From NCBI RefSeq assembly GCF_032118995.1, contig NC_092662.1:1488001-1552000 (forward strand): 64,000 nt of DNA, given 5' to 3'. Every line of letters begins with the position of its first letter. Positions within the stretch are counted from its first letter, which is position 1. This DNA is from Asterias amurensis (taxonomy: Eukaryota; Echinodermata; Asteroidea; Forcipulatida; Asteriidae). Shown in pieces: positions 2,339 through 31,400 of this stretch. The notes under the pieces are model-generated. The model was not told the origin of the DNA, made no database searches, and was given only the letters and a program-made list of their open reading frames with translations. Position numbers and translations under genes: made by a program.

Positions 2339-2347
2339 CTATATATA
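2339..2347 (+). promoter_or_regulatory. TATA box of the snoRNA host gene
   Basis: TATATATAC lies about 35 bases upstream of a pyrimidine-rich start (TTTCTCTGCTG) and about 65 bases upstream of the first donor. The spacing fits a TATA-driven start at about 2374-2377. Confidence 0.6.
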
Positions 2348-2967
2348 CGGCACACGTGGCTCATGCCAATTTGTTTCTCTGCTGTTCGTGATGTGGTGTG
2401 TTGTCCAGAGGTAAGCCCAATCGCTGAAAATAAGTGTCTTCTAAAATCCATTGACATCGGTTTCTTTTTCAGATTAAATATACAAATACACTTCTTATTG
2501 TAATTATAAAGGACTTATCATACAAGTTCATGTGAATATAGGGTGATTTGTTTGGTTTTAAGATATTTTTGCTAGGGTTTTTGGCAAGCAACTGTTAAAC
2601 ATTTGCGTACTTCACTTCTTTTAATTTCTGGTTATTAAAACTGTTGTGAATCATTTTTGTCGTATTGAAAGTAATAAATTCTTTACAGAGCCACTTTAAA
2701 TGACCAATGCTCCCAGGATTTTGCATTAATTTGAGGGTGGAACTTGACACTTTTTTGTTCGGTGATGATGTCTGATCAATGATATCACCACGTGACCATT
2801 TTTTTTTTTTAATTATTATGTTTAAACTTTAACTAAAACAACTAACACACTGTCACTAGCGCCCTCTTTCTTTGTTTCTTTAATTGATCTGTGATCAAAA
2901 GATGCGAAAATGAGAACTGTAAAAATTGTTTTTAAAAACATTCCATTCCAATCCCATTCTGTTAGTG

Positions 2968-3310
2968 TTAAAGGATTTGGGTACTTTTTCAAAATAAAAT
3001 GTCCATAGATTTACATTTAACTTACAGGGTTTGAAGATAATGATAGTGGAAAGCTTCCCTTCAAATCTTACTTACTGAGGTGCTGTAGTTTTTGAGAAAT
3101 GAGTAAAACGTCATGAAAATCCGTTTGTAAATTATTAAAATAATTTTCGTCTCATGAGACGAAAATAATTTTCATGACATTGTTTTACTCATTTCCAAAA
3201 AACTACAGCACCTCAGCACGTAGTATTTTCAGGGAAGCTTTCTACTATCATTATCTTCAAACTGTAAGTTTAGTGTAAATCTGTGGACATAAGTTACATA
3301 GACCCTTTAA
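2968..3310. repeat. Long foldback MITE in intron 1 of the host gene
   Basis: The two halves form a near-perfect inverted repeat (for example GAGGTGCTGTAGTTTTTGAG at 3079 against its complement near 3200) around a central palindrome (CGTCTCATGAGACG). The ends are TTAAAGG and CCCTTTAA, as in other elements here. No ORF. Confidence 0.8.
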
Positions 3311-3859
3311 GCTTCACATGGTTACTGGTAAAGCAACAGCGGTTTCACTAATCATTTATTTTATGAATGAAAAGTTTGAAATTGCAAGTATTTAATGCTT
3401 TGGAAAGATTTCCTTATCCTACTAGTCTACCACTTTTTCCCTCTTTTTACCATCAAATTTCTTATTTGTTGAGTAAAATAGAGAAATTTATTTCCTAACT
3501 AATGAATAAGAAGTTAAGTTAGGCCTACAAAAAATTTTTATAAACCTAATTTACTATAATAAAAAAAAAAATGATGAATTTCTTTTAGTTTTCGTAAAAA
3601 AAAATAAGTGAAAATACTTGGGGAAACTCATTTCGGCTCCATTTGTGAACAGCCCGGCATTTCTTGGCTCGAACTTAATAGGTTTATTTTCCAGTGAAAA
3701 ACTGATGGGTTCCTAACCGATTGCTCAATGAATGATAACAAATATGTAAATAACACGATTTTAAGGGCTTCGGCTTCCCAACAAAGGACTATAATTTTTT
3801 TCAAACTATTTCATAGCCCTACCCTAACCGTGTCTATTTTGCTTTCCCTATTTAAACTT

Positions 3860-3940
3860 GCACAAATGATGACTTAGATAAGATAACTGAGAGTCCATGA
3901 TTAGAAAGTTCTTAACAATGGATCGATAGGTCTGATGTGC
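3860..3940 (+). ncRNA. Box C/D snoRNA, intron 1, target not assigned
   Basis: C box ATGATGA (3866), D-prime CTGA (3887), C-prime-like TGATTA, D box CTGA (3932). A perfect 5-bp terminal stem GCACA/TGTGC closes it. The 3-prime end lies 124 bases before the acceptor at 4064. The guide before the D box contains ATGGATCGATAGG; I could not place it on rRNA from memory. Confidence 0.82.
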
Positions 3941-4195
3941 TTCCCCCGTCTTCCTTGCCCCTGCAAGGTATCTGAAGTCTGATGTTGACTTAAAAACCAA
4001 CTGTTCAATAAATCACAAATTTTAAGTTGATTTGTTAATTTTGCTTTTCTCACCAAATGTACAGACCTGTGTTACTGACCAAGCTCAAAGATGTTTGTCC
4101 ATACTTCTACTTAAGCTAAAAAAGGTAAGACAGTAGATCTAGCATCATCGCTTATATTATCTTGTTTTTTGTTTTTCTTTGTTCTGCAAACCCCA

Positions 4196-4281
4196 GCACA
4201 AATGATGATTACTAGATAGGGACACTTGATTAATCATGATGATAAACATCTTTTTATACAGTGGAATCAATACTGATGTGC
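4196..4281 (+). ncRNA. SNORD74: Box C/D snoRNA, SNORD74-like, intron 2
   Basis: C box ATGATGA (4202), D box CTGA (4273), terminal stem GCACA/TGTGC. The 5-prime guide AGATAGGGACA, next to a degenerate D-prime (TTGA), sits at the same spacing as TAGGGACAT-CTGA in human SNORD74. That guide pairs with the 28S segment TGTCCCTA(C/T)CTA (human 28S C3820 site). Second guide unassigned. Confidence 0.78.
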
Positions 4282-4690
4282 TGGTCTAAATTTATGATAA
4301 TACAAAAAAAATGCTGTAAATTGGCCAATTACTTGTTTATTATAAATGGTTGATGATTTTTATAAACATTGCTTTTTCTTTACTGTGTAAGTGTTGAACA
4401 TGGCATTGCTCACACAAATTTCTGATTTATTTTTAAGCTTGCAAGGATGGAAGAAGTACTTTCACACAACAGAATGGGCATTTGGAGATCGACAAAGAGC
4501 CACCAAACATTGAACATGTAAGAATGTTTAAAAGCAGATCATTTATAAATAAAGTTCAAGTAACTCGGATGTAGAAGTACCCCTTGTTTGTTTTCAGTAT
4601 TCCCAACTTGTGGACTAGATGCTTAAATTGGCCCATGAGGATAATACTTCAGCCAACTTAAAAAGAATGGGGGGGGGTTGTTTGATTATG

Positions 4691-4775
4691 GTGCTTGTGA
4701 TGATTCAAGTCGCTCTTAGTTTAACAACTGTGATGACAAGTTTAAATGTAGCGACACTAGGGCGGTCTGAAGCAC
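4691..4775 (+). ncRNA. Box C/D snoRNA, family c copy 1, intron 3
   Basis: C box GTGATGA (4697), C-prime TGATGAC, D box CTGA (4767), terminal stem GTGC/GCAC. Both arms and the guide before D (GTAGCGACACTAGGGCGG) are conserved in copies 2 and 3. Target not recognised. Confidence 0.85.
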
Positions 4776-5017
4776 ATGATTACAACTGCTTTTGTATGTA
4801 GTATTTGTTAAGTTGAATTTTGAATACTGACATTGATTTTTACCAAAGAAATGTGCCTGACTTTCTCCAATTGTTTTTTATCCAGTTGCAGTCACTGTTG
4901 GTTGGAATCACAAGTTCTGGTAGATGTTGTTCCTCTGATAAATAATAGAGTCTGAAGGTATGTTTCATGGTTTAATGATTTTTGTAGTGATTAATGATAT
5001 ATATTTTTTGTTTGAAT

Positions 5018-5102
5018 GTGCTAGTGATGATTCAAGTCGCTCTTAGTTTAACGACTATGATGACAAGTCTAAATGTAGCGACACTAGGGCGGTCTGAAGC
5101 AC
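5018..5102 (+). ncRNA. Box C/D snoRNA, family c copy 2, intron 4
   Basis: Same RNA as at 4691 with few changes, none in the guide before the D box. C box at 5024, D box at 5094, stem GTGC/GCAC. The flanking exons 4886-4957 and 5199-5262 are also homologous, so an intron-plus-exon unit was duplicated. Confidence 0.85.
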
Positions 5103-5323
5103 TCCGTTACAGCTTTTCGACATTTTTTTTTTATTATAAATAATGATACACATTTTTATTGAATAAATGTGCCTTGTTTTCTTTCCAGTTCTATCCAGTT
5201 GCAATCTCTGATTGGCTTAATGGCAATATCTAGTTGTTTCGCCTCTGATGTAATTAATAAAGGTAAGTTTTCCTGTCATCTTTGTGGCCATAACTAGCTT
5301 TCTGTTTATTTGAACTGAAGATT

Positions 5324-5408
5324 GTGCTTGTGATGATTCAAGTCGCTCGTAGTTTAACGACAATGAAGACACGTTTAAATGTAGCGACACTAGGGCGGTC
5401 TGAAGCAC
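5324..5408 (+). ncRNA. Box C/D snoRNA, family c copy 3, intron 5
   Basis: Third copy. C box GTGATGA (5330), D box CTGA (5400), stem GTGC/GCAC. Most changes lie in the middle; GTAGCGACACTAGGGCGG is unchanged, which points to selection on the guide before the D box. Confidence 0.85.
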
Positions 5409-5637
5409 TTAATCAAAGCTGTCGAGTTACAAAATTGCAAGTCTTTTGAGTCGTAAGTTTAAAACAAATCGTTTGGTATTTTTTGTTAGGTGCAGAGCAG
5501 ACTGACGTAGGGTGTTCCCATGGTGATAGTCTAAAGAATGCAGAAATAGGTATGTAATTTATGTCATTCTAAATCAAACATTTACATTTAAAAAAAATAT
5601 ATAATAATAAGTTTTGAAAGGTGAGGTTTACATCATG

Positions 5638-5720
5638 TGTGTCGGTGATGACAATATTTGCTACTCTTGACAGTCTGGATGACGACACACATTGACTACC
5701 ATCAAGATCTCTGAGACACA
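5638..5720 (+). ncRNA. SNORD76: Box C/D snoRNA, SNORD76-like, intron 6
   Basis: C box GTGATGA (5645), D box CTGA (5711), 6-bp terminal stem TGTGTC/GACACA. The 5-prime guide plus D-prime reads ATTTGCTACTCTTGA, identical to human SNORD76 including its unusual TTGA D-prime box. It pairs with 28S GTAGCAAAT (human A2350 site). Confidence 0.88.
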
Positions 5721-6006
5721 TACACAGATGTAATCCTTTGTTGAATATGATGCACCCCCTCCCCTCTATATTCTGAACGGAATGTATTAGGTTTTATGGT
5801 ATGTTTAATTTTCAATCATTTTGTTTCTTCAGGTCTATTGGTGCATCCTTCTTGAAGCACAGTCTTGCATGCAGAGAAGTCTTGAGCAATGGTAAGTCCT
5901 TGGTCCAGATGTATTTTGTTATTTCAAAAGTCTTGTGAAGCTGATTTTGAAAACAGAATCTTTTGCTATAGTTATTTCAGTTTAGATTCCGGTCTTGTTA
6001 TTAATA

Positions 6007-6097
6007 CTGGGGTTATGATGAGTACGATGATTATAAGATGCTGAGTTTTCAAACGTTGATTATATCATCATTAGCTACTAGACGGACTGAACCCCAG
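6007..6097 (+). ncRNA. Box C/D snoRNA, intron 7, possible 28S target
   Basis: C box ATGATGA (6015), D-prime CTGA (6041), D box CTGA (6087), 7-bp stem CTGGGGT/ACCCCAG. The guide before D contains AGCTACTAGA, complementary to the conserved 28S stretch TCTAGTAGCT. No human counterpart recalled. Confidence 0.82.
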
Positions 6098-6349
6098 TGA
6101 AATCGGTCAACCAGCTGTTGCACACAAAACTTGTTATATTGTTGCTCATATCTGTACCAGAAATTAAGACATAATTCTGTTTTATTTCATACAGCCATCT
6201 TCTTTGATGTGTAATTCCAAGTGGTTGCCGTCATCTAATGCTGAAAAGGTAATTGATAATATCTTCGTGCTCACAATTGGGTTTTTTGGGGGGGGGTTGA
6301 AAAGAGGGAAAAGTCATGGGGCGAAATTTGTATGCATGGTTGGTTAAGC

Positions 6350-6445
6350 TTTTTGCCTTGAAGTGATGACTGCATAGTTCAGCTGATAACTGTGATGAGC
6401 TCTAGAGTAAATTAGTCTTTCGCTCCTATCTGATCCTGGTAAAAA
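6350..6445 (+). ncRNA. SNORD80: Box C/D snoRNA, SNORD80-like (shares a guide with SNORD77), intron 8
   Basis: C box GTGATGA (6363), C-prime GTGATGA (6393), D box CTGA (6430). Guides CATAGTTCAGC and TCTTTCGCTCCTATCTGA match human SNORD80 almost base for base; they pair with 28S GAACTATG and AGGGGCGAAAG. An outer AAGCTTTT/AAAAAGCTT stem brackets it. This is the clearest orthology anchor to GAS5. Confidence 0.92.
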
Positions 6446-6491
6446 GCTTAACACGTCCATATTCATTCATTCATTCAAACTGATATTTATT

Positions 6492-6528
6492 TCCATCAGC
6501 TATGCCGTGACGAAAACCCTCAACATAA
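6492..6528 (+). ncRNA. Decayed 3-prime fragment of the H/ACA snoRNA
   Basis: The last ~37 bases of the H/ACA RNA found in introns 9, 10 and 18 (ATGCCGTGACGAAAACCC, then ACA) lie after the SNORD80-like RNA in the same intron. No 5-prime hairpin is present, so it is probably a dead remnant of the duplications that built this region. Confidence 0.65.
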
Positions 6529-6710
6529 TTGCGTTTACTTTCTTTTTTAAATAAATAGTTGTTTCTATTTACAGGAATGCAAGAAGAGTTTTACATTAGC
6601 AACATCAAACAACCGGGATCATCTTAGAGAAATTATGTAAGTCACTATCATTTTCTACAATTTATTGCTTGTTAATTTTTTTATTTTTTTTTACTTAAAA
6701 GTTAATGCTG

Positions 6711-6852
6711 GTATAGCCAATATTGCCACATCAAACTTTCATCCGATGAAAGATAGTTGATTCCAGAATATGGCTTATACTAAAATGATGGTCAATGAAG
6801 CGGCAAGATGTTTAATTGATCAGCTGTGCCGTGCCGAAAACCCTCAACATAT
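6711..6852 (+). ncRNA. H/ACA snoRNA copy A, intron 9
   Basis: The 5-prime hairpin is closed by GTATA/TATAC, GCC/GGC and ATATT/AATAT, with an inner CTTTCAT-CCG-ATGAAAG hairpin. Then come a hinge AAATGA (H box ANANNA, 6783) and a 3-prime hairpin around GCGGCA/TGTGCCGT. ACA lies at 6847, three bases from the end. This RNA would guide pseudouridylation; target unknown. Confidence 0.75.
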
Positions 6853-7083
6853 GTATCCAGCAACTAAATGAAGGTCATTGAAATGGATTATATTCATTGC
6901 GTTTACTTTCTTTTTTTAAATTAATAGTTGTTTCTTTTTACAGGAATGGCGAGAAGAGCTTAACATTAGCAACATCAAACAACCGGGATCATCTTAGAGA
7001 AATTATGTAAGTTACTATCATTTTCTACAATTTATTGCTTGTTAATTTTTTTATTTTATTTTTTTACTTAAAAGTTAATGCTG

Positions 7084-7225
7084 GTATAGCCAATATTGCC
7101 ACATCAAACTTTCATCCGATGAAAGATAGTTGATTCCAGAATATGGCTTATACTAAAATGATGGTCAATGAAGCGGCAAGATGTTTAATTGATCAGCTGT
7201 GCCGTGCCGAAAACCCTCAACATTT
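7084..7225 (+). ncRNA. H/ACA snoRNA copy B, intron 10
   Basis: Nearly identical to copy A through both hairpins, hinge and ACA (7220). The flanking exons 6575-6636 and 6944-7006 are also near-identical, so this is a recent intron-plus-exon duplication. Confidence 0.75.
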
Positions 7226-7463
7226 ATCTACATGTGCAGCATCCAGTACATCAAATGGACTTTCTGCAATACTTTTTTTTAGATTTTTATTAACTTATGG
7301 TAATTTTGTTTTGTTATGTTATTTCCAGTAATGACGGGAAGAGTGTTCTTTGAAACCGCAAAAGCACTCCAGAATCATTGCAAGGTAAGACATTTGTGAC
7401 CTTTTGGTTTAAATACTAAGACATAATATTTAATTGAAAAGTTCTAGGTATTGAAAGGTTCTA

Positions 7464-7548
7464 GATTGACTGATGTGATGAAAACACACATTAAAGCCAG
7501 TCTTGCTTCTGACCATTACTGCTGAGTTGTGCCCTCTGATTGGTTAAT
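7464..7548 (+). ncRNA. Box C/D snoRNA, family h copy 1, intron 11
   Basis: C box GTGATGA (7475), D-prime CTGA (7509), D box CTGA (7536). Guide stretches AAGCCAGTCTTGCTT and GAGTTGTGCCCT are invariant in all seven copies. An outer stem ATTGAC/GTTAAT closes it. Target not recognised. Confidence 0.85.
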
Positions 7549-7779
7549 ATAGAACCTGATATAATTTTTATAGTGTTGTGCTATCAAGTTAAAACAATAA
7601 TTTAATACTGCAAAAGTAACCTTAATTTATATATTTTCTTTAATTGTTTTCAGGAATGATGAGTATAGTGCACATCAGAGTCGCAAACGTTGTGGAGACA
7701 TTGCAAGGTATGAAGTAAATTGAAAAGAAAGTCGAATTACTGAGACATTGAAAAAGTATCTAATTGATAGGTTTGGTTA

Positions 7780-7865
7780 TATTAACCTACATGATGAAAA
7801 CACACATTAAAGCCAGTCTTGCTTCTGACCTTTAGTGTTGAGTTGTGCCCTCTGATCGGTTAATA
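7780..7865 (+). ncRNA. Box C/D snoRNA, family h copy 2, intron 12
   Basis: C box ATGATGA (7791), D box CTGA (7852), perfect stem TATTAACC/GGTTAATA. Same guides as copy 1. Upstream and downstream intron sequence differs from copy 1, so the duplication of copies 1 and 2 predates the 605-bp triplication. Confidence 0.85.
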
Positions 7866-8068
7866 AACCTTTTATGTGCTTTATCAATTACAAGCTAACA
7901 AACGATCTCGACACTGAAAACAAATAAAGCTCGCCTCTGTTTTATTTTCAGACTTTGAAACCGCAAAAGCACTCCAGAATCATTGCAAGGTAAGACATTT
8001 GTGACCTTTTGGTTTAAATACTAAGACATAATATTTAATTGAAAAGTTCTAGGTATTGAAAGGTTCTA

Positions 8069-8153
8069 GATTGACTGATGTGATGAAAACACACATTAAA
8101 GCCAGTCTTGCTTCTGACCATTACTGCTGAGTTGTGCCCTCTGATTGGTTAAT
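8069..8153 (+). ncRNA. Box C/D snoRNA, family h copy 3, intron 13
   Basis: The copy of the 7464 RNA in the second 605-bp unit. C box at 8080, D box at 8141. No difference seen. Confidence 0.85.
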
Positions 8154-8384
8154 ATAGAACCTGATATAATTTTTATAGTGTTGTGCTATCAAGTTAAAAC
8201 AATAATTTAATACTGCAAAAGTAACCTTAATTTATATATTTTCTTTAATTGTTTTCAGGAATGATGAGTATAGTGCACATCAGAGTCGCAAACGTTGTGG
8301 AGACATTGCAAGGTATGAAGTAAATTGAAAAGAAAGTCGAATTACTGAGACATTGAAAAAGTATCTAATTGATAGGTTTGGTTA

Positions 8385-8470
8385 TATTAACCTACATGAT
8401 GAAAACACACATTAAAGCCAGTCTTGCTTCTGACCTTTAGTGTTGAGTTGTGCCCTCTGATCGGTTAATA
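8385..8470 (+). ncRNA. Box C/D snoRNA, family h copy 4, intron 14
   Basis: The copy of the 7780 RNA in the second 605-bp unit. C box at 8396, D box at 8457, stem TATTAACC/GGTTAATA. Confidence 0.85.
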
Positions 8471-8673
8471 AACCTTTTATGTGCTTTATCAATTACAAGC
8501 TAACAAACGATCTCGACACTGAAAACAAATAAAGCTCGCCTCTGTTTTATTTTCAGACTTTGAAACCGCAAAAGCACTCCAGAATCATTGCAAGGTAAGA
8601 CATTTGTGACCTTTTGGTTTAAATACTAAGACATAATATTTAATTGAAAAGTTCTAGGTATTGAAAGGTTCTA

Positions 8674-8758
8674 GATTGACCGATGTGATGAAAACACACA
8701 TTAAAGCCAGTCTTGCTTCTGACCATTACTGCTGAGTTGTGCCCTCTGATTGGTTAAT
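8674..8758 (+). ncRNA. Box C/D snoRNA, family h copy 5, intron 15
   Basis: The copy of the 7464 RNA in the third 605-bp unit. C box at 8685, D box at 8746. One base differs just before the C box. Confidence 0.85.
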
Positions 8759-8989
8759 ATAGAACCTGATATAATTTTTGTAGTGTTGTGCTATCAAGTT
8801 AAAACAATAATTTAATACTGCAAAAGTAACCTTAATTTATATATTTTCTTTAATTGTTTTCAGGAATGATGAGTATAGTGCACATCAGAGTCGCAAACGT
8901 TGTGGAGACATTGCAAGGTATGAAGTAAATTGAAAAGAAAGTCGAATTACTGAGACATTGAAAAAGTATCTAATTGATAGGTCTGGTTA

Positions 8990-9075
8990 TATTAACCTAC
9001 ATGATGAAAACACACATTAAAGCCAGTCTTGCTTCTGACCTTTAGTGTTGAGTTGTGCCCTCTGATCGGTTAATA
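8990..9075 (+). ncRNA. Box C/D snoRNA, family h copy 6, intron 16
   Basis: The copy of the 7780 RNA in the third 605-bp unit. C box at 9001, D box at 9062. Confidence 0.85.
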
Positions 9076-9267
9076 AACCTTTCATGTGCTTTATCAATTA
9101 CAAGCTAACAAACGATCTCGACACTGAAAACAAATAAAGCTCGCCTCTGTTTTATTTTCAGATCTTGTGAACAGATTCACCAAGAGCAGATTTTCCTGGT
9201 AGGTTCAGAAATTTGTATGATTTAAAGGAGGTTTTTGTGCAACAGATTATTTACTTCAAAGAGAGTT

Positions 9268-9353
9268 GATTAACCGATGTGATGAAAACACACATTAAAG
9301 CCAGTCTTGCTTCTGACCTCTAGTGCTGAGTTGTGCCCTCTGATTGGTTAATC
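9268..9353 (+). ncRNA. Box C/D snoRNA, family h copy 7, intron 17
   Basis: Outside the 605-bp array. C box GTGATGA (9279), D box CTGA (9340), perfect 8-bp stem GATTAACC/GGTTAATC. The flanking intron sequence is unlike the other copies while the RNA is almost unchanged, which shows selection on the RNA itself. Confidence 0.87.
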
Positions 9354-9578
9354 CTTAATTTTGTTTCCACTTCCTGCAAATGGCAATGCAAACAAATGGC
9401 TATTTGACTCTAACTGTATCTCTTCTTCTGATCTCAGGGAGTACAAGATTTCCCAAGTCCAGTGATGAGTTTTTAACTGGTAAGTTGAAGTTCAAGTTTC
9501 ATTTTGTGATAGTGCACAACAGTTTTTGTAAAAGCTGCCTTGTTAATGCTTCTTGAAAATAAAGTATGAAAACAACAA

Positions 9579-9718
9579 GTTATAGCTCATTAGCCACATC
9601 AAACTTTCATTCCATGAAAGTATCGATGCCATAATGAGGCTTAGATTAAAATGGTGGTCAAATGAAGCGGCAAGAAGTTCTTTAATCTCCTATGCCGTGC
9701 CGAAAACCACCCACAAAT
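9579..9718 (+). ncRNA. H/ACA snoRNA copy C, intron 18
   Basis: A diverged relative of copies A and B. The CTTTCAT/ATGAAAG hairpin, hinge region, GCGGCAAGA arm, GCCGTGCCGAAAACC and ACA (9713) are kept; connecting bases vary. Retention of the structural elements suggests it is functional. Confidence 0.68.
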
Positions 9719-10090
9719 ACCACGCCTATTATTTCCTTAAAAGGAGGGTTCCACTGAATCTTTTTAACTGTGACCCCCTTGTTTTCTTTTTTACCAGATG
9801 GGGGCAATATGGTCGAGGACTGTACTAGTGGAACAAGGTGGGCTGTGTTTCAGGGGTAAGTACAAATTGCATTTCTTGTTTTGCCTCTTGATGAAAAAAG
9901 TTTGTTCAAAGTTCTGCTCCAAAGATTATGGTTTGCATTTGTTTTGAGTATTTGTTCAATAAGTATCATTTATTAAGTTTTTTATAAATGGATTGGAGAA
10001 AAGAGTATTACATATATCGATTGAGTCACACAATCTGCTGCTGGTCAATTTTTTGGTATTATATTCCAACAAATATAACCAAAATATTAA

Positions 10091-10167
10091 GAAATGCTAT
10101 AATGATGACAGCATGTATTATCTGATCTATTGATGAAAACAGGTCTTGTTCCACTGAATGGCATTTC
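10091..10167 (+). ncRNA. SNORD45: Box C/D snoRNA, SNORD45-like, intron 19
   Basis: C box ATGATGA (10102), D-prime CTGA (10122), C-prime TGATGAA, D box CTGA (10154), perfect 7-bp stem GAAATGC/GCATTTC. Guide GCATGTATTA before D-prime is complementary to 18S TAATACATGC, as in human SNORD45 (18S C174). Human SNORD45 genes sit in RABGGTB, not GAS5. Confidence 0.8.
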
Positions 10168-10357
10168 TCACAACTCTACGTAGTTAGGACATTGTTATAT
10201 ACAAAGTCGCAAGGTGAATCACAAGACCAACATTGGAAATGCATTTCAGGGTTTATGTAATAAAATATTTCTTCTTTTTTACAGCTATCAACAAAAATGC
10301 CGAAGATCTTTAATATCAGGTTCGTTATACTTCATAATAAAAAAAATTAGGAACGAT

Positions 10358-10451
10358 TGAATGATGTACAATGATGACAATATTGAATGCCCCAGTCTGA
10401 AAGTCATGATTGATTATTCAACAGTCAAATGCCTTCTGAGTACATCATTCA
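10358..10451 (+). ncRNA. Box C/D snoRNA, family j copy 1, intron 20
   Basis: C box ATGATGA (10371), D-prime CTGA (10397), D box CTGA (10436), 11-bp stem TGAATGATGTA/TACATCATTCA. Guide GAATGCCCC before D-prime is complementary to 18S GGGGCATTC, a site that may correspond to human SNORD98; tentative. A MITE separates it from the acceptor. Confidence 0.83.
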
Positions 10452-10499
10452 TGTAGAGTTTTCTGTGTCTCCAGTTATCACTCATTTTTATGTCGACAC

Positions 10500-10731
10500 T
10501 TAAAGACACTGGACTCTATTGATGAGATATTCATAAAATAACTTGCCTGTGAAAAATGAGCTTGTTAAGTTTGAAAATAACATTGAAACACTAGACTAGA
10601 AAACAAGTCTCCCCATAACTCATGCAAGCTATAAACACCAACAGGGAGCAACATGCAGAGTATAAGTAATTTTATCGCTTACTTGATAAAAATTATTTTG
10701 AGTGATTACCAATAGTGTGCACTGCCTTTAA
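10500..10731. repeat. MITE-like element in intron 20
   Basis: Begins TTAAAGACACTGGACTCTATTG and ends with the complementary pattern CCAATAGTGTGCACTGCCTTTAA, so it has terminal inverted repeats. It also contains internal sequence shared by the family (AACTTGCCTGTGAAAAATGAG). No coding capacity. Confidence 0.78.
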
Positions 10732-10975
10732 CCATTGCATCTATTTATCTGTTTCAGATGTTGACAAGTTGCTGTCTCCAGAGCAGAAGGGTTGTTGCCG
10801 TCTCCAACGAAGGTAAGTTTAACATAGATTTAAGTGTTGTGTTTTCTTTGTTGAACCCAACTGGACAAAGTATGCTCTCTTTTTGGTCCTTTCACTGCAT
10901 TTTAATTGAAAATGAAACTAAAATTCTTTAGAGCTGCTCAAATGGTTCGTGTCGACAAACTTTTAGTTTGTTTGT

Positions 10976-11062
10976 CTTGTACCAATGATGATTGTTATGA
11001 TTCTGCCAACCGGAGCGAGCCAATGAGGTCAAGTATAACCCGTTAAATTTCTGAGGTACAAG
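10976..11062 (+). ncRNA. Box C/D snoRNA, family k copy 1, intron 21
   Basis: C box ATGATGA (10985), D box CTGA (11051), 8-bp stem CTTGTACC/GGTACAAG. The segment AACCCGTTAAATTT before D and GCCAACCGGAGCGAGCC in the middle are identical in copy 2. Target not recognised. Confidence 0.85.
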
Positions 11063-11432
11063 AAATGCATTCTTTTTCATGAGAAAGGACAAACACTAAT
11101 TGATCAAAGTTTATACCTGCGGTTTTCATACTAACTTTGCTGTGTTTTTTGTTAATGCAGATTGTGTCAAAGACATCGGCTGGCTGAAAATGGATCAGTG
11201 AGATCAACTTGATATTTCAGGTGTGTGTATTTCTTTGTATACAAATGTAAATGCCAAAGAAAAATACGATTAATACCACTAAAACTAGCTTGATTTTGCA
11301 AATTGAAGAAAAAGCCATGTCAGATATTAGGCCAAAGTATGCATTGACAACCGGGGTCAACAACAAAATAAGGAGGCAAGATTGTATACCCCACTCTGAT
11401 TTTGTAGTTGTTTTTGCAATACATTATTCTTC

Positions 11433-11522
11433 AATGATGTACAATGATGACAATATTGAATGCCCCAGTCTGAAAGTCGTGATTGATTATTCAACAGTCA
11501 AATGCCTTCTGAGTACATCATT
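11433..11522 (+). ncRNA. Box C/D snoRNA, family j copy 2, intron 22
   Basis: Copy of the 10358 RNA with essentially one internal change. C box at 11444, D box at 11509, stem AATGATGTA/TACATCATT. Here the acceptor (11598) is 76 bases downstream, the normal spacing. Confidence 0.85.
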
Positions 11523-11719
11523 CATGTGGAGTTATCTTTGTTGTTGGCTTAATTTGGGGTCGTTTGTTAACCATTGCATTTATTTCTTGATTTCAAAGGT
11601 TTCTGGTGGAGAGCAGGATGATTGTTTGCCATCTCCATTGCCAGAATTTAAGGCAAGTTGAAATTTGTATGTGTTTTGGTTTTTGTTATTGGGTTGCCAA
11701 CTTTTGTTCAGAGTTTGTA

Positions 11720-11804
11720 TTGTACCGATGATGATTGTTATGATTCTGCCAACCGGAGCGAGCCAATGAGGTCAAGTATAACCCGTTAAATTTCTGAGGT
11801 ACAA
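11720..11804 (+). ncRNA. Box C/D snoRNA, family k copy 2, intron 23
   Basis: Copy of the 10976 RNA with one change in the linker before the C box. C box at 11728, D box at 11794, stem TTGTACC/GGTACAA. Confidence 0.85.
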
Positions 11805-12278
11805 GAAATGCAACTCATGTAACTAAAGAAAAATGTGTATCTGCTGATCAAATTTTGAATTGATATTCAAATACTAATTTTGATGTTTTTTTGTCGTGCA
11901 GTGTTGGAAGACTTTGCCGTACACAGTTTAAAAGATCATCGGGCTTGGAATCTCAGGTATGTATTTCATTGTATAGGAACCCTGTGGGCCTAAATATTTA
12001 TATTGGAAGTGACCTTTGCAAAGAAAATATGCTTGCTGTTCAAAGGGCATGGTTAACTCTTCTTTTTTTTTCTACTTTTTTTTTTAAAGATCTGAATAAC
12101 TTAAATTTAATAGCCAGACTCTGCCTGATATGTCTCTATAGCAAACACCATGTGTACTGGTCTTTTCTTGTACTTGATATAATATTCCTACTTTTCAAAT
12201 CCTATATTTCTTCTTTTGTTCCACAAATATGATGCCTGCACAAAGATGAACATCCATGACTGTTGGTGTAATTTGTTT

Positions 12279-12374
12279 TGGCATTCTGAAGATGATGAGT
12301 TTGAACTTGTGGGAATCTCTCTGAAATAACCATGTAGAGTAATTTTACAATGTTCACTGATCCAGATTTGCCAG
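12279..12374 (+). ncRNA. SNORD79: Box C/D snoRNA, SNORD79-like, intron 24
   Basis: C box ATGATGA (12292), D-prime CTGA (12321), D box CTGA (12357), stem GGCA-TCTG/CAGA-TGCC. The guide with D-prime reads TGGGAATCTCTCTGA, matching human SNORD79; it pairs with 28S GAGATTCCCA (A3809 site). Confidence 0.85.
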
Positions 12375-12552
12375 CATTGGGGTATTTTTTTACTTGATGT
12401 TTAAAAAAAAAATAACTGACTTGACTCGATCGTTGATTATAACTCCCTTTTACTTTTTATGTTAGGTTGTTTCCAGTGAGGGCAATTTCAGTCCACAAGC
12501 AAAACCATGAATTATCCCTGGAACAGGTGTGTAAAATGTCTACTTTGGTTAC

Positions 12553-12752
12553 AAGGTAGTGGACACTCATGGTAATTACTATGAAAAAAAGTCGCATAAA
12601 ACCTTACTTGGTAATGGGGAGAGATGGATAGTATAGCTCCCTCTGAATTGAGCTCAAATTTTCAGTTTTTTTTTATTTTATGCACATCTTGAGATAAACC
12701 AAGTGATAAGACCTGGCTTTGACAATTACCAATAGTGTCCAGTGTCTTTAAA
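12553..12752. repeat. MITE-like element in intron 25
   Basis: Ends AAGGTAGTGGACACTCATGG and CCAATAGTGTCCAGTGTCTTTAA are inverted repeats of the family at 10500-10731. Confidence 0.75.
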
Positions 12753-12818
12753 CTCTTAGGTTTGTTTATTTACAATTTTTCTTTTAACTTCCCAATCCCA
12801 AATCCAAATTTGTGGCAT

Positions 12819-12921
12819 GGGGAAAATGATGATAACTTTTAAACACGTACTATTGAACTCTCTAACTGAAGAGAAAGGTTTCACAGCTAATCTCGATGTT
12901 GTGTTCAAGTTCTGATTCCCC
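12819..12921 (+). ncRNA. SNORD81: Box C/D snoRNA, SNORD81-like, intron 25 (last)
   Basis: C box ATGATGA (12826), D-prime CTGA (12866), D box CTGA (12912), 6-bp stem GGGGAA/TTCCCC. Guide TTGAACTCTCT before D-prime equals the human SNORD81 guide to 28S AGAGAGTTCAA (A391 site). As in human GAS5, it is the last snoRNA of the host. Confidence 0.87.
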
Positions 12922-13535
12922 TCTTTCAAAAGCGAATTACATAGGTATTGGTCGACCCTTCTATTGAGGATCTGCCTGAGATCAATTTAGTTGATCCAAG
13001 AAAAGCGTTTGTTATAAAATGCATGGTTAGAAAGGTGTTTTAAAAAGCGAATAAAATGGTCCACACAAGTATCAATCGAAATTGCGTGATTTTCCCTAAA
13101 CGTCGTGAATTCACAGTCTGCCATTTTATGGAGTCGAGTCAAACCTTGACTCCACAAAATGGTATTCTTTGTCCCGTCTACTCCTGTCAAAAGAGAGTGG
13201 TGCGATTTTTTTCAGCGGATCTCTATGTAGCATTAAAAAATCCAATTCCCCTTGAAGATGAACCAGGCTTAGCCCCTATGCCTGTATTGAACATGGACAA
13301 TGTGTATCAAGTTCGTCTTGGTAGTATTTTGTTGATATGATAGTGATGACCTTTTTTTTTCTTTCTGTTATCTGCAGGTTTGAAGCCAAAAGGATCAAGT
13401 GCAACTGAACGGTTATCTTCCCAATGTTCACTGCCTGTCATTGCTTTAATCAAAATTAAACAAATTTGAATTATTTCATCTTCAGTACATGTGTAACTTT
13501 CTGATTAGAAACATAATTTCGATTCGAGTTGCTTC

Positions 13536-13541
13536 AATAAA
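13536..13541 (+). terminator. Polyadenylation signal of the snoRNA host gene
   Basis: AATAAA, overlapping a second copy (AATAAAATAAAA), lies about 160 bases into the last exon. Confidence 0.75.
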
Positions 13542-13560
13542 ATAAAATGAAGTGAAAGTA

Positions 13561-24129: not shown

Positions 24130-26310
24130 ATGCGGTTTATTGAGAATCCTGAGTTAAGAGAATGGGTGAAAGAAAACTTGTGCAGGACAGTCTTTCAAAA
24201 GGTTAGTTGATTAAAAAAAAAAGAGTTTTCTAAATTGTCTCTTGTACCTCTCCAGACATGTTCAGCTTATTTCATCTTTTTCCCCCAAAGAATGACGTTG
24301 AAAACTAGGGGTTTAGGGCTAAGAGTTAAGTTTGATGTAAAAATTGTATACAATGTTTAGTACCGGTACAGACTGCCTTCACAGTGCAAGTTAGCTCTAC
24401 CTACAATTTGATAGTTTTGGTTGGTTTTTGTGGGGGGGTTTTCAGGAAAATATAGTGATTTGAAAACTAAAAATATTTACGTTTGTGTGTTTTTTACTTT
24501 CTAATTACAGGCACATGAGTTGGCTGTGCAAACTGGTTGTGAAGTACTGGTCAAACTACAGGATGGAGCTAACCAATCCGGCCAGTATTATGCCACCAAG
24601 GCCCTTCATCTTTTGTACAAAGGGAAAGGATTGACCAAGCAACCATGGGAGGTGACGGTATCAGGGATCACTGGACTTCCAGAAACCGTCTTGGTGGACA
24701 AAAGCAGCCAAAGTGACGGATGGACGGAGGATGGGGGTTCTAAGGAGGATGCAGTGAAGGTTGTGTCGGGAGAGATGACCTCATCTTCATTAAACTCGGA
24801 GGACTACCAAGTAACATCTGCTTCAAGTGTCCTCAATGGTCAAAGTGTTTGCTGTATGGATAATGACCAAGCTGTAACTAGAACTATTAAAGAGAGTATA
24901 GAGGGATCTGTTATTGTGAAAGAGGAACATGAACTTGGACAGTTTGCAGAGCCCTGCTCCTCGTCAATCCATTCACATAACCATGATTTTGGAAGATTTA
25001 GAGTACTTTCAGAAAACAAGGGAAGCTTTCCTGATCAGTATCAACCAAATGATGAGTTGAACTCTCTTTGTGATTCTAACGGTAATGATAATGAAAATGG
25101 TCTGACTTTAGCCAAGTCTGATGATACAATGAATCAAACTCTGTTCCAAAGTCAAAATTGTGCAGCCTTTGTAGGAACAGATCAAAACCAAACTGAGATT
25201 CATTGTGCTGAAACTGAAACAGTAGTGCCAACTCCTAGGCCATACAAGTGTGGAATCTGTAGCAAGACATTTGGTAGTATCCAGATACTGAGCCGGCATG
25301 CACAGATAAACCATGGAATGGAGAGGCAAATGAGTTTCTTCTGTGATGTGTGCGGGCAGAGCTACAAGTTGGCACAACATTTACAGCGCCATATGCACAT
25401 GCATCGCACTGTGATGCCTTACATTTGTTCCGTATGCCATAAGGGTTTCTTCAATGGGACTAGCTTGATCAAACATGAGAAGGTTCACCAAAAATTCAGT
25501 GACAAGGTTCACACAGTATTTCACTGCCAGATCTGTCCGAAATATTTTCCGCAGGTGTCCGAGCTGGTTGAACATGCAAAGCAGGTTCATGGTAGCCGAA
25601 GATGTGCTTCAGGTGCTCCATCATCTCAGCATGCTTTCCCCACACCAACAGCGATCACATCTGAACACTCTCACCTCTCACCTCTTGGTGAGGAAACAAC
25701 TGATGAAATCACAGAAGGAGACACTCAAGATATTTTAGAAGAAACCTTTCAAAATGATAACTTTCTCTCCGACACAACTGCCCTGCCTCGCGGTAGTTTA
25801 AGACCAGTGTTTCCACAAGTCATTCATGACTCCTCCAAGAATTCTGGCTCTCCACATTCCAAAACAGAACATAGCAAAAAGAAAGATGACAACCAAGAAA
25901 CTACCCCTGGTAGCCCCATCAGCAGCATCGCTGATATTTTTAGCAATGCCCCAAACACAAACTCAGGGATTCGTCTGGCCTTTAAAAGAAACATTGGACT
26001 GTTATCAAGCGGGAGTCAATCCTCCAACTTGTTCAGATTGAATAGACATAATTGCAATATCTGTGGGAAGAGTTACAAGTACAACTTCTCTTTAAAGGAA
26101 CATCTTCTCACTCATGCCAGTGTGCCTCAGTTTTCTTGTAAGATTTGTGGAACTAAGTTTACCCGAAGACGTCAGTTAAGAGATCACATGTTCCGACACA
26201 GTGGATTGTACCCCTACCATTGTGAGATTTGTGGCAAGGGATGTATTCGGCCATCTACACTGAAAAGACACCAGACAGAACGTCATCGGATGCTCAATGA
26301 GGAACTCTAA
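24130..26310 (+). CDS. Seven-finger C2H2 protein with an N-terminal MADS/SRF-like domain
   Basis: Putative nuclear DNA-binding protein of 623 residues, two coding exons: 24130-24201 and 24511-26310. Residues 1-60 (MRFIENPELREW..., FQKAHELAVQTGCEVLVKL, GQYYATKAL) align without gaps to the SRF-type MADS box (MEFIDNKLRRY..., MKKAYELSTLTGTQVLLLV) up to the end of the first beta strand. The lysine/arginine run that contacts DNA in SRF is missing. Residues 60-265 are a long low-complexity acidic/Ser linker. Four C2H2 fingers follow from about 269 to 385 (YKCGICSKTF..., FFCDVCGQSY..., YICSVCHKGF..., FHCQICPKYF...), then a second linker, then three fingers from 537 to the end (HNCNICGKSY..., FSCKICGTKF..., YHCEICGKGC...). 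I know no named vertebrate orthologue. The start at 24130 is the first in-frame ATG of the exon. Confidence 0.88.
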
Positions 26311-28290: not shown

Positions 28291-28404
28291 GCATTGGTAG
28301 AAAGACTATACCACGCGCAGGTGTACGGTATACTGCCAAGCTCTAAAATACCATCCTTTCAGAATCCAAGTCCAAAGGTAACCATTCCTTTAGCAGTGAG
28401 CAAG

Positions 28405-31400
28405 ATGTTCTTCAAGAGCTCAACAACTTGTCTTCTGTTTCTTAGCTCAGTCTGTGTCCAGATCCACATTTCACATGAGGAGCTGAGTACGGACGTGGAC
28501 GAGGCCAGAGAGTTTTTGGCAAACTATGGAGCCACGGCTAAGGTGGTGTACTTTGCAAGTAATCTGGCTAGCTGGTCATACTCTACTAACATCACCGATT
28601 ATAACCAGCAAAAAGATGTATGTATTCTTATTAATTCGTTCAAAATGCGTTTTTTTTTTACAGATCATAGAGTGTCCCTTGCTGTACTATAAGATCATGA
28701 AACCATTGATAAATGTTCATAAAAGAGTTATGTAGAGCTTTGATTCCTGGTCGGGGTTGACTGACAGGCACGATTTTAGATACAAATCTGACATTAGAGA
28801 TCGCACTGGCTGATTTTTATAAACTTTTCATATTATATAAAAACTTGTTCAGCTGCTTTGTACCTCTTGAATGCATGCATGACATAGTTTCCAATTTGAC
28901 CAGGGGTGGATTTCACAAAGGTAGTCCTAACTTAGGACTTGTCCTAGGCAATGCTAAGAGATAGGACCAGTCCTAAGTTAGGACCAGTAACTCATCCTAA
29001 CTTAGGACCAGTCTTATCTCTTAGCATTGCCTAGGACTAGTCCTATAAGTTAGGACTACCTTTGTGAAATCCACCCAGTCTTGCCTATCAGAAAGTTCAT
29101 GGAATGCAAGGTCATGTTGACCTATTCAGTCTTGGTTGGCAAACTGGTTTATGGGCAGTTGTGGTTGTGTCGGTGTGTGCCAGTGCATTATCAATCAGGA
29201 AAATAGGTGGGATAGCTAGTTCGCACTTATTAATCTTCATATACACCATGTACTGAGTTGATGGGTTTTAAATGAGAAAATAAATTGGTCGGGTTAATTT
29301 TTCAGTTGGAAGCCGGACTAGTCGCAGCTGCCTTCGACAGGGAAGCCTATGAGAACGCCACCAAATTTGACGAGACAGGTTTTCCAGATGACATCAAGAG
29401 ACAACTTCAGAAACTCAAAGACATAGGATCTGCTGCATTGGAGCCTAGCAAAGTTGAAAGGGTAAGATATTGCATTAACTATGTGGGTTTTTGTATACTT
29501 CTGTTTTCATCTCCTATTAAAATTGTGATCAGAACCCGGGACTAACTTTCAGGGTCCGGGCAGGCATTATTTCCACACAAAAAGGATTTCCCCTCCCATA
29601 ATATGGGAGGGGTTGTGTCAAGGGCAAAAGAGCAAGGTCACTTGACTTTATGCGGACAAATAAGTGAAACTCAAGTCCAATAAAAACGGATAAGACAAAG
29701 TGGGGCAATTTCAACTGGTGTTGTTTCACTTCTCAAAAAATTGCTTCAACTGTACCGTAATTTAGTGTTCACTTTCTCAATGGTATCTTTCTTTTTATAG
29801 TACAATGAATTGACCAGCACCATGTCTGGGAATTACGCCTCTGCTTCGGTATGCCGACCGGATAATTCAAATGAATGTCTACAGATCGAACCTGGTAAGC
29901 CCGCAGTAACTATACTTCCTCTATATTATTGTTATTTCCCTATAATTTAACAACAATGGGTCACAATAATTTGGAACTTTCCATAACACGTGTTTTTAAA
30001 TTGTAACTGCATGATGCTTTCTTATCAGGTTTGGGTAAAGTCATGGCTACCTCTGAAGACTGGGAAGAGCTATTGTGGGCCTGGCAAGGATTCCGAGATG
30101 AAGTCGGGATACCAAACAAACCACTCTACAAGGAATATGTGGCACTTGCCAATGAAGCTTCTCGTCTCAACGGTACGTTAAGGCCGCGTCCAAAATGGCC
30201 GTTATGGCTACGGCTACGGTTGCTCAGGATGTATATATATAGCCCTGACGGCCCTTATACTTTCGTATTATACTACAGTATCTGTGTATAGAGGAAGAGT
30301 CATATAATAGGACTCGAAGTAAAGGAAGTCATCAGAAATGTTCACTCTTAATATGAAGAGCATCATCAGACCCGAAATTTATTATAGTGATCTCTGGTGC
30401 TGTTTTGGGGGCAACGATGACACTAAATATCCCCCGGGAAAGTAAGGTATCTTGCAATGATATAATTGATTTATGCACACAATTTCGATTTACTAAAATA
30501 ATGTGTATTTCATTCTAGGTTTTTCTGACAAGGGCGATTACTGGAGATCTGAGTACGGGGGTGATACCATTGCGCAGGCGTATGAGCTTTATAATCAGAT
30601 CCTACCATTATACAAGCAGCTTCATGCCTACGTCAGACGCATCATGAATACCAAACACAGCGATCACGTGGATCTAACTGGACGTATCCCAGGCAACCTA
30701 CTCGGTGGATATGGCTAACATTTTTATTTTCATCATAAAGAACATAATATTTTTAACCTTGAATAGTTTATTTAAGTGAATGTACTATGCGTGTAAAGTA
30801 AAAGATGTCCAATAATCCATCTCAGTTGAAGCATTTCAACGAACTAAATAAAATGATTCGTTGTGCTATCTTGTGCAATAATGTATCATTGCTGCACAAA
30901 GTATACCGTAACCGGTATTAATCTAACCTATTTAGGTTCCCGATAGGCGACATTTTTCAAGCAACAACTGGGTTCGGCTTTGAGCCGTATAACGAGCCTT
31001 TTCTCGCAAGGTATTTTAATGTTAAAATCTTGACAAGTCACGCGGAAATTATGTTCTGAATAAACGAAATCACAAACGGGGAATATTTCCTTTAGCCTTT
31101 TATGTGTCATTTACAATCCATCTTGCGTTTTATTTTATTATGGGCACTTTTGTGAACTATTGTTTGAAGTGGACTAATCTGTTTTGTTCACAGGAGACAT
31201 GTGGGGTCGCTTCTGGGGCAACATCTACAGCCAAGTTGTTCCTTATCCGGATGCCCCAAATATTGACGCCACGGACTCCCTTAGGGCAAAGGTAGTGATT
31301 GTAGTATTATAATAATACCCTCTTGGGATAGGTTCCAATAAGAGTATGGTAAGACCCCAATTAAGATATATAAAATGAGCGATAAAGTCTTCACATTTTG

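Follow-up and report, generated by a model that had tools for sequence, protein, structure and literature searches.

The interval 2377..13560 on the + strand of a window from the sea star Asterias amurensis, the window being the whole stretch of 64,000 nucleotides (nt) analysed here (contig NC_092662.1, positions 1,488,001 to 1,552,000), reads as a non-protein-coding host gene for multiple small nucleolar RNAs (snoRNAs). That a functional snoRNA host gene lies there is very likely. Furthermore, its guides and their order make it probable that the gene is a homologue of GAS5 by descent from an ancestor of the vertebrate gene, an orthology that we infer short of proof. A preliminary description of this DNA had stated that the host gene predates vertebrates, and we find a greater age than that of the vertebrates likely, short of a demonstration. 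The locus is best read as a duplication-prone gene of a known kind in an unexpected lineage. The invertebrate origin assumed in that description was borne out, as the species is a sea star and a neighbouring zinc-finger open reading frame (ORF) is 93% identical to an Asterias rubens protein.

snoRNA genes of the locus

The + strand of 2377-13560 carries 25 snoRNA genes, 22 of box C/D and three of box H/ACA, the number counted in the preliminary description. We scanned the whole window on both strands for RTGATGA, CTGA and a closing stem. The scan gave 21 matches on the + strand of 2374-13560 (11.2 kb), none on the − strand of that interval and none on either strand in the remaining 52.8 kb of the window, as compared with a mean of 0.12 and a maximum of 2 in 100 Markov controls. 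The 22nd C/D gene (12284-12368) has a weak closing stem under the threshold of the scan, yet it matches Rfam SNORD79. The 22 genes fall into 12 distinct families. C and D boxes, a closing stem and complementarity to ribosomal RNA (rRNA) before D or D' were found in these genes, with weak or irregular pairing in three of the 12 families (3859, 6006 and the array at 7466). The three H/ACA genes (6702-6862, 7079-7235 and 9578-9722) were recognised by eye from two hairpins, an ANANNA hinge (box H) and an ACA. Minimum-energy folds of these slices showed two clean hairpins in two of the three, whereas the fold of 6702-6862 had an additional stem on the outside. No H/ACA family of Rfam matched these genes in the covariance search, and no rRNA target for their pockets was found by eye, the only way in which one was sought. 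The snoRNA genes are as follows, with the evidence in brackets.

3859..3941, +, C/D snoRNA without assigned human counterpart, weak pairing to 28S GCCTAACGATCC (scan)
4194..4283, +, C/D snoRNA, SNORD74-like, 28S C3820 at D' (guide test; Rfam snoR44_J54 32.4 bits, cut-off 48)
4690..4776, +, C/D snoRNA, SNORD43-like copy 1, 18S C1703 (scan, guide test)
5017..5103, +, C/D snoRNA, SNORD43-like copy 2 (scan)
5323..5409, +, C/D snoRNA, SNORD43-like copy 3 (scan)
5638..5721, +, C/D snoRNA, SNORD76 guide (28S A2350) at D', SNORD24 guide (28S C2338) at D (Rfam, guide test)
6006..6098, +, C/D snoRNA without assigned human counterpart, pairs with 28S TCTAGTAGCTGGT (scan)
6354..6441, +, C/D snoRNA, SNORD80 type, 28S A1521 at D', G1612 at D (Rfam, guide test)
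6702..6862, +, H/ACA snoRNA copy 1 (fold; boxes by eye)
7079..7235, +, H/ACA snoRNA copy 2 (fold)
7466..7548, +, C/D array copy 1, weakly SNORD38-like, 28S A1858 (scan, guide test)
7782..7864, +, C/D array copy 2 (scan)
8071..8153, +, C/D array copy 3 (scan)
8387..8469, +, C/D array copy 4 (scan)
8676..8758, +, C/D array copy 5 (scan)
8992..9074, +, C/D array copy 6 (scan)
9270..9352, +, C/D array copy 7 (scan)
9578..9722, +, H/ACA snoRNA copy 3 (fold)
10092..10167, +, C/D snoRNA, SNORD45-like, 18S U172 at D' (scan, guide test; Rfam SNORD45 26.5 bits, cut-off 42)
10359..10451, +, C/D snoRNA, SNORD31-like copy 1, 28S G4166 (guide test; Rfam SNORD31 31.9 bits, cut-off 40)
10976..11064, +, C/D snoRNA, SNORD47-like copy 1, 28S C3866 region (guide test; Rfam SNORD47 32.5 bits, cut-off 50)
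11432..11524, +, C/D snoRNA, SNORD31-like copy 2 (Rfam SNORD31 33.2 bits, cut-off 40)
11719..11807, +, C/D snoRNA, SNORD47-like copy 2 (Rfam SNORD47 30.9 bits, cut-off 50)
12284..12368, +, C/D snoRNA, SNORD79-like, 28S A3809 at D' (guide test; Rfam SNORD79 41.7 bits, cut-off 47)
12816..12925, +, C/D snoRNA, SNORD81-like, 28S A391 at D' (scan, guide test)

Guide pairing and covariance support

One C/D gene from each family, 12 of the 22 in all, was tested for guide pairing at a list of human rRNA sites compiled after inspection of the guides. The fifth base before D or D' was taken to mark the modified site, and 300 shuffles of the snoRNA cores served as the null, either in the exact register or with one base of slack. 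Pairing scores were 18.4 at G1612, 15.4 at C2338, 12.5 at A2350, 11.0 at A391 and A3809, 10.0 at A1521 and U172, 8.4 at G4166, 7.5 at C3820 and 7.0 at C1703. In the exact register, 2 of the 300 shuffles matched the score at G4166 and none matched the score at any of the other nine sites; when one base of slack was allowed, 3 of 300 reached the score at C3820, and 3 of 300 that at G4166. The SNORD81-like gene, for example, pairs at A391 through 11 guide bases. C3866, the SNORD47 site, was hit with one base of slack (score 10.9, 0 of 300 shuffles), the pairings at A1858 (18 of 300) and A166 (34 of 300) were weak, and no guide for C4032 was found among the 12 representatives.

Eukaryotic 28S was also searched for as a stand-in for starfish rRNA; none was found in viral contigs, and genome contigs gave five loci that are apparent contaminants. 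At A1521, G1612 and A1858, one or more of these loci were identical to the human rRNA used here; at C2338/A2350 and at 18S C1703 there was one mismatch. They gave no useful cover of A391, C3866 and U172, and only divergent copies at A3809/C3820 and G4166. Primers printed in PMC6856654 agree with this human rRNA at A1521 and A3809/C3820. Note that a eukaryotic-type 28S stretch lies at ~3120-3452 (−) of NZ_QBKZ01000001.1, a 1.16-Mb contig titled Mangrovicoccus ximenensis, and is either contamination or a chimera.

In the Rfam covariance search, the SNORD80-type gene (6354) matched snosnR60_Z15 with 56.3 bits and gene 5638 matched SNORD24 with 50.4 bits, both above a cut-off of 41, and gene 12284 matched SNORD79 below its cut-off (E 2.7e-4). 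SNORD47 copy 1 scored 32.5 bits (E 0.005) vs 31.5 bits for plant snoR27 at the same place, so that SNORD47 leads by one bit there; at copy 2 it leads by 3.5 bits. The SNORD74, 76, 80, 79 and 81 guides named in the preliminary description all stand at guide level, and SNORD47, which it had not listed, is present twice. At the level of families its assignments fared unequally: the SNORD80 type was supported above the cut-off, SNORD79 was matched with a score short of the cut-off, and the gene taken as SNORD76 has that guide at D' but is a double guide with SNORD24 at D, which is the name that Rfam gives it.

Two genes were considered for further GAS5 families and rejected. Gene 6006 was taken up as SNORD77 for a pairing near the U80 site; the pairing lies elsewhere, and no SNORD77 is among the matches listed. 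Its 13-nt complementarity to 28S TCTAGTAGCTGGT stops four bases before D, unlike the usual spacing, and the gene is not known to have a human counterpart. Gene 3859 was considered as SNORD74, a family absent among the matches listed, and the SNORD74 guide sits in the next intron. In each of the three SNORD43-like copies (4690-4776, 5017-5103 and 5323-5409), D is preceded by GTAGCGAC-ACTA-GGGCGGT, a guide whose two halves are complementary to 18S ACCGCCCGTCGCTAC and are separated by four additional bases. Such an interrupted guide would be unusual.

Probable relation to vertebrate GAS5

Guides for GAS5 sites occur in 6 of the 12 C/D families, with SNORD74, 76, 79, 80 and 81 in register and SNORD47 with one base of slack. 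Given the human host assignments and an assumed human total of 80-110 families, the hypergeometric probability of drawing at least 6 of 12 families from the human set of 10 is 7e-5 to 5e-4; note that counting the hybrid 76 gene as a GAS5 family favours the GAS5 reading. According to PMC6856654, the human order is SNORD74, 75, 76, 77, 44, 78, 79, 80, 47, 81. The shared guides of the starfish are ordered 74, 76, 80, 47, 47, 79, 81, and five of the six shared families are collinear with human GAS5 (P 0.036). Both numbers argue against an independent assembly, in which the starfish host would have gathered mobile snoRNAs by itself and the overlap with GAS5 would reflect coincidence or a shared tendency, not descent. 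The architecture argues in the same direction. Vertebrate GAS5 and the starfish gene share a non-coding host with short exons and C/D snoRNAs in successive introns, a TATA box with a pyrimidine start (proposed for the starfish), the six guides in nearly the same order, and snoRNA duplication within the gene. Specifically, the chicken gas5-like gene is described in PMC2653536 as having a TATA box, a 5' terminal oligopyrimidine (5'TOP) start, exons of <100 nt and snoRNA gain by tandem duplication, and that paper regards the gene as a hotspot for the expansion of snoRNAs in vertebrates. The starfish gene resembles it.

Several observations weigh against descent from GAS5 or weaken the case for it. 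The guides were tested on human rRNA and not on that of the starfish. The SNORD74-like guide at C3820 is only 8 bp long, equalled by the three shuffles with slack given above, and C3866 is not hit in the exact register with a CTGA-like box (171 of 300 shuffles as good). The SNORD81 model scores 16.2 bits at the 12816 gene vs 17.5 on another snoRNA of the host gene, and the unrelated snoZ122 reaches 16.6 bits at the 12816 gene; a covariance score no better than that of an unrelated family is what the preliminary description had named in advance as speaking against its reading. The SNORD74 family is absent among the Rfam matches listed for the locus, where gene 4194, whose guide does pair at C3820, matches snoR44_J54 instead. 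If only the Rfam-supported families (80, 24/76, 79 and 47) are counted, P rises to 0.012-0.038. None of the 12 C/D representatives tested was found to have a guide for the sites of SNORD44 and 75, the SNORD77 site is covered by the 80-type gene (6354) with no separate SNORD77 seen, SNORD79 is out of the human order, placed after 47, and the SNORD76-guide gene is a U24 hybrid. The human U24 resides in RPL7A. The other half of the families consists of SNORD43-, 45-, 31- and 38-like guides, which in human are housed outside GAS5, and of two families without known human counterpart; the starfish gene also differs from GAS5 in having 25 snoRNAs vs 10, and in its three H/ACA genes. Among 20 window ORFs tested, the upstream flank being only 2.4 kb, we found no GAS5 neighbour that would support synteny. 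The human neighbours are ZBTB37 and DARS2; in the starfish there are angiotensin-converting-enzyme genes and a zinc-finger gene of the C2H2 type, whose long ORF had no match to BTB. The claim of a GAS5-like gene is supported in part, for half of the families, the other half not being GAS5 content and no conserved neighbour being seen. In addition, many such guides are ancient, and intronic snoRNA locations are reported to be unstable or mobile across eukaryotes (PMC3511168). Neurospora has clustered, gas5-like non-coding hosts with intronic C/D snoRNAs whose content is unlike that of gas5, according to the authors of PMC2780460. With these points on its side, independent assembly is still rather unlikely in our judgement, and descent from a GAS5 ancestor is the more probable reading.

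Two genes bear on how the guides may have been distributed. Gene 5638 has guides for A2350 and C2338, as has U24 of yeast and Arabidopsis at the equivalent sites; human U76 and U24 divide these sites between them (both from a table in PMC3511168). Gene 4194 matches the plant family snoR44_J54 (RF00357) with E 5.6e-5 in the slice. The printed consensus of this family has AGGGACA and UGGGAAUCUCU within one snoRNA and carries the same D' guide core, AGGGACA, as gene 4194, which also has part of the D guide (GGAAUC); unlike the plant family, gene 4194 lacks one base and the last positions of the D guide. Its sequence before D, GTGGAATC, is the start of the SNORD79 guide minus one base. As far as two genes can tell, 4194 (74 with part of 79) and 5638 (76 with 24) would fit an ancestor with double guides that were later split.

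Predicted exons and transcript

The splice-chain score of the locus was 237 on the + strand and 73 on its reverse strand. Scores were 76-132 in eight equal-length stretches elsewhere in the window (four places, both strands, containing other genes) and 60-96 in 10 Markov controls, giving 60-132 for all 19 controls. A chain free to ignore the snoRNAs had 28 introns, with some exons overlying snoRNAs, whereas the chain respecting them had 25 introns with one snoRNA in each and short exons between, an outcome that was rewarded in its scoring. Because the controls also yield 18-28 'introns', the chain score and not the intron count is the evidence, and the number of exons, 26, is less certain. The 26 exons with one snoRNA per intron, claimed in the preliminary description, were thus recovered in the best chain, which was rewarded for it, and not in the free chain. 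At least three exon edges were better moved by eye than left as the program chose. The promoter elements and exons are listed below; exon coordinates are from the snoRNA-respecting chain unless stated.

2340..2347, +, TATA box TATATATA, read in sequence, 37 nt upstream of the proposed start
2374..2380, +, pyrimidine tract TTTCTCT, read in sequence, proposed 5'TOP-like start near C2377 (predicted)
2377..2410, +, exon 1 (start assumed)
4065..4124, +, exon 2 (start by eye; program 3968)
4473..4517, +, exon 3 (start uncertain; 4438 or 4446 also possible)
4886..4957, +, exon 4
5189..5262, +, exon 5
5490..5549, +, exon 6 (end by eye; program 5620)
5833..5891, +, exon 7
6195..6248, +, exon 8
6575..6636, +, exon 9
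6944..7006, +, exon 10
7329..7384, +, exon 11
7654..7707, +, exon 12
7952..7989, +, exon 13
8259..8312, +, exon 14
8557..8594, +, exon 15
8864..8917, +, exon 16
9162..9198, +, exon 17
9438..9479, +, exon 18
9798..9855, +, exon 19
10285..10319, +, exon 20
10758..10812, +, exon 21
11161..11220, +, exon 22
11599..11652, +, exon 23 (by eye, GC-AG donor AAG|GCAAGT; program 11645-11666)
11902..11956, +, exon 24
12466..12526, +, exon 25
13378..13560, +, exon 26 (AATAAA at 13536-13541 and 13541-13546, read in sequence)

In the snoRNA-respecting chain, the median distance of the snoRNAs is 81 nt to the 5' splice site and 96 nt to the 3' splice site. These distances, the strong splice signals between the snoRNAs (237 vs 60-132), and the single promoter-like and single poly(A)-like ends make it very improbable that the snoRNAs come from small genes of their own or from a single endonuclease-cut polycistron instead of from introns of a spliced host, even though the exact exon count varies with the chain settings as such a reading would allow. 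We would likewise give hardly any weight to a fast-evolving or short protein as the main product: one frame of the modelled transcript (1,653 nt) is open for 89 codons, the longest stop-free run, but there are 28-38 stops per frame, and the sole overlapping ORF tested (11251-11658) had no Pfam match. The reading as a host gene lacking a long ORF was supported. As in GAS5, several intronic snoRNAs sit in a non-coding host, one per intron in the chain that was rewarded for that arrangement.

Within the first intron, at 3063-3228, there is a long inverted repeat, perhaps a small transposon. Matches to microRNA families at this place were rejected, as they arise from the repeat and are far below the cut-off.

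Copies and duplication

Ten pairs of copies were compared, excluding pairs inside the exact 605-bp blocks described below. In eight C/D pairs the snoRNAs were 89-98% identical, and the 55-nt flanks on each side were 44-57% identical vs 48-52% for shuffled flanks. One of the two H/ACA pairs was 93% identical with flanks of 77 and 60%, and the other was 73% identical with flanks of 53 and 46%. The snoRNAs stay alike while their surroundings diverge; note that gene conversion restricted to the snoRNAs would leave much the same pattern as selection on the copies.

The region 7348-9162 consists of three head-to-tail 605-bp blocks, differing by 0, 4 and 4 bases, with two exons and two snoRNAs in each. 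Either the blocks were triplicated very recently or they are an artefact of the assembly.

Proposed expression and significance

RNA polymerase II would probably transcribe the gene, with a TATA box and a pyrimidine initiator as the promoter, and splicing would join about 26 short exons into a product that may be without a function of its own. Each excised intron would be debranched and then trimmed to one snoRNA, the ends of which would be shielded by the closing stem and the snoRNA-binding (snoRNP) proteins. The C/D snoRNAs are predicted to guide 2'-O-methylation of 28S and 18S rRNA, and the H/ACA snoRNAs presumably guide pseudouridylation. If the gene descends from a GAS5 ancestor, the guides for C3820, A2350, A1521/G1612, C3866, A3809 and A391 would have been kept, for the most part in the order of GAS5; the exons would have drifted, and snoRNAs would have been gained and have multiplied through duplication.

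We see an even chance for a more specific history, in which GAS5 is at least of deuterostome age and has held linked guides together for >500 million years while its exons drifted, the starfish retains ancestral double guides (76 with 24, and 74 with a relic of 79), and at least the 74/79 guide was split within this host. If true, this would be an exception to the instability that is reported for intronic snoRNA locations. Research on GAS5 in human disease concerns it as a regulatory long non-coding RNA (lncRNA). Should the gene predate vertebrates and selection hold mainly its snoRNAs, guide delivery would be the ancestral role and the lncRNA roles would have come later. No description of GAS5 outside vertebrates was found in a literature search by title or abstract opening, with most subscription journals outside the search. 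The exact locus and its guide set are now named for comparison across deuterostomes.

Neighbouring genes

The zinc-finger ORF (24505-26310, 601 amino acids) is 93% identical over its full length to the Asterias rubens protein and 41% identical to one from Acanthaster. On the + strand, 28291-34372 and 47991-51986 contain exons of what are probably two angiotensin-converting-enzyme (Peptidase_M2) genes in tandem, with one of the four Peptidase_M2 matches below the Pfam cut-off. In addition, a tRNA gene is located at 36582-36654.

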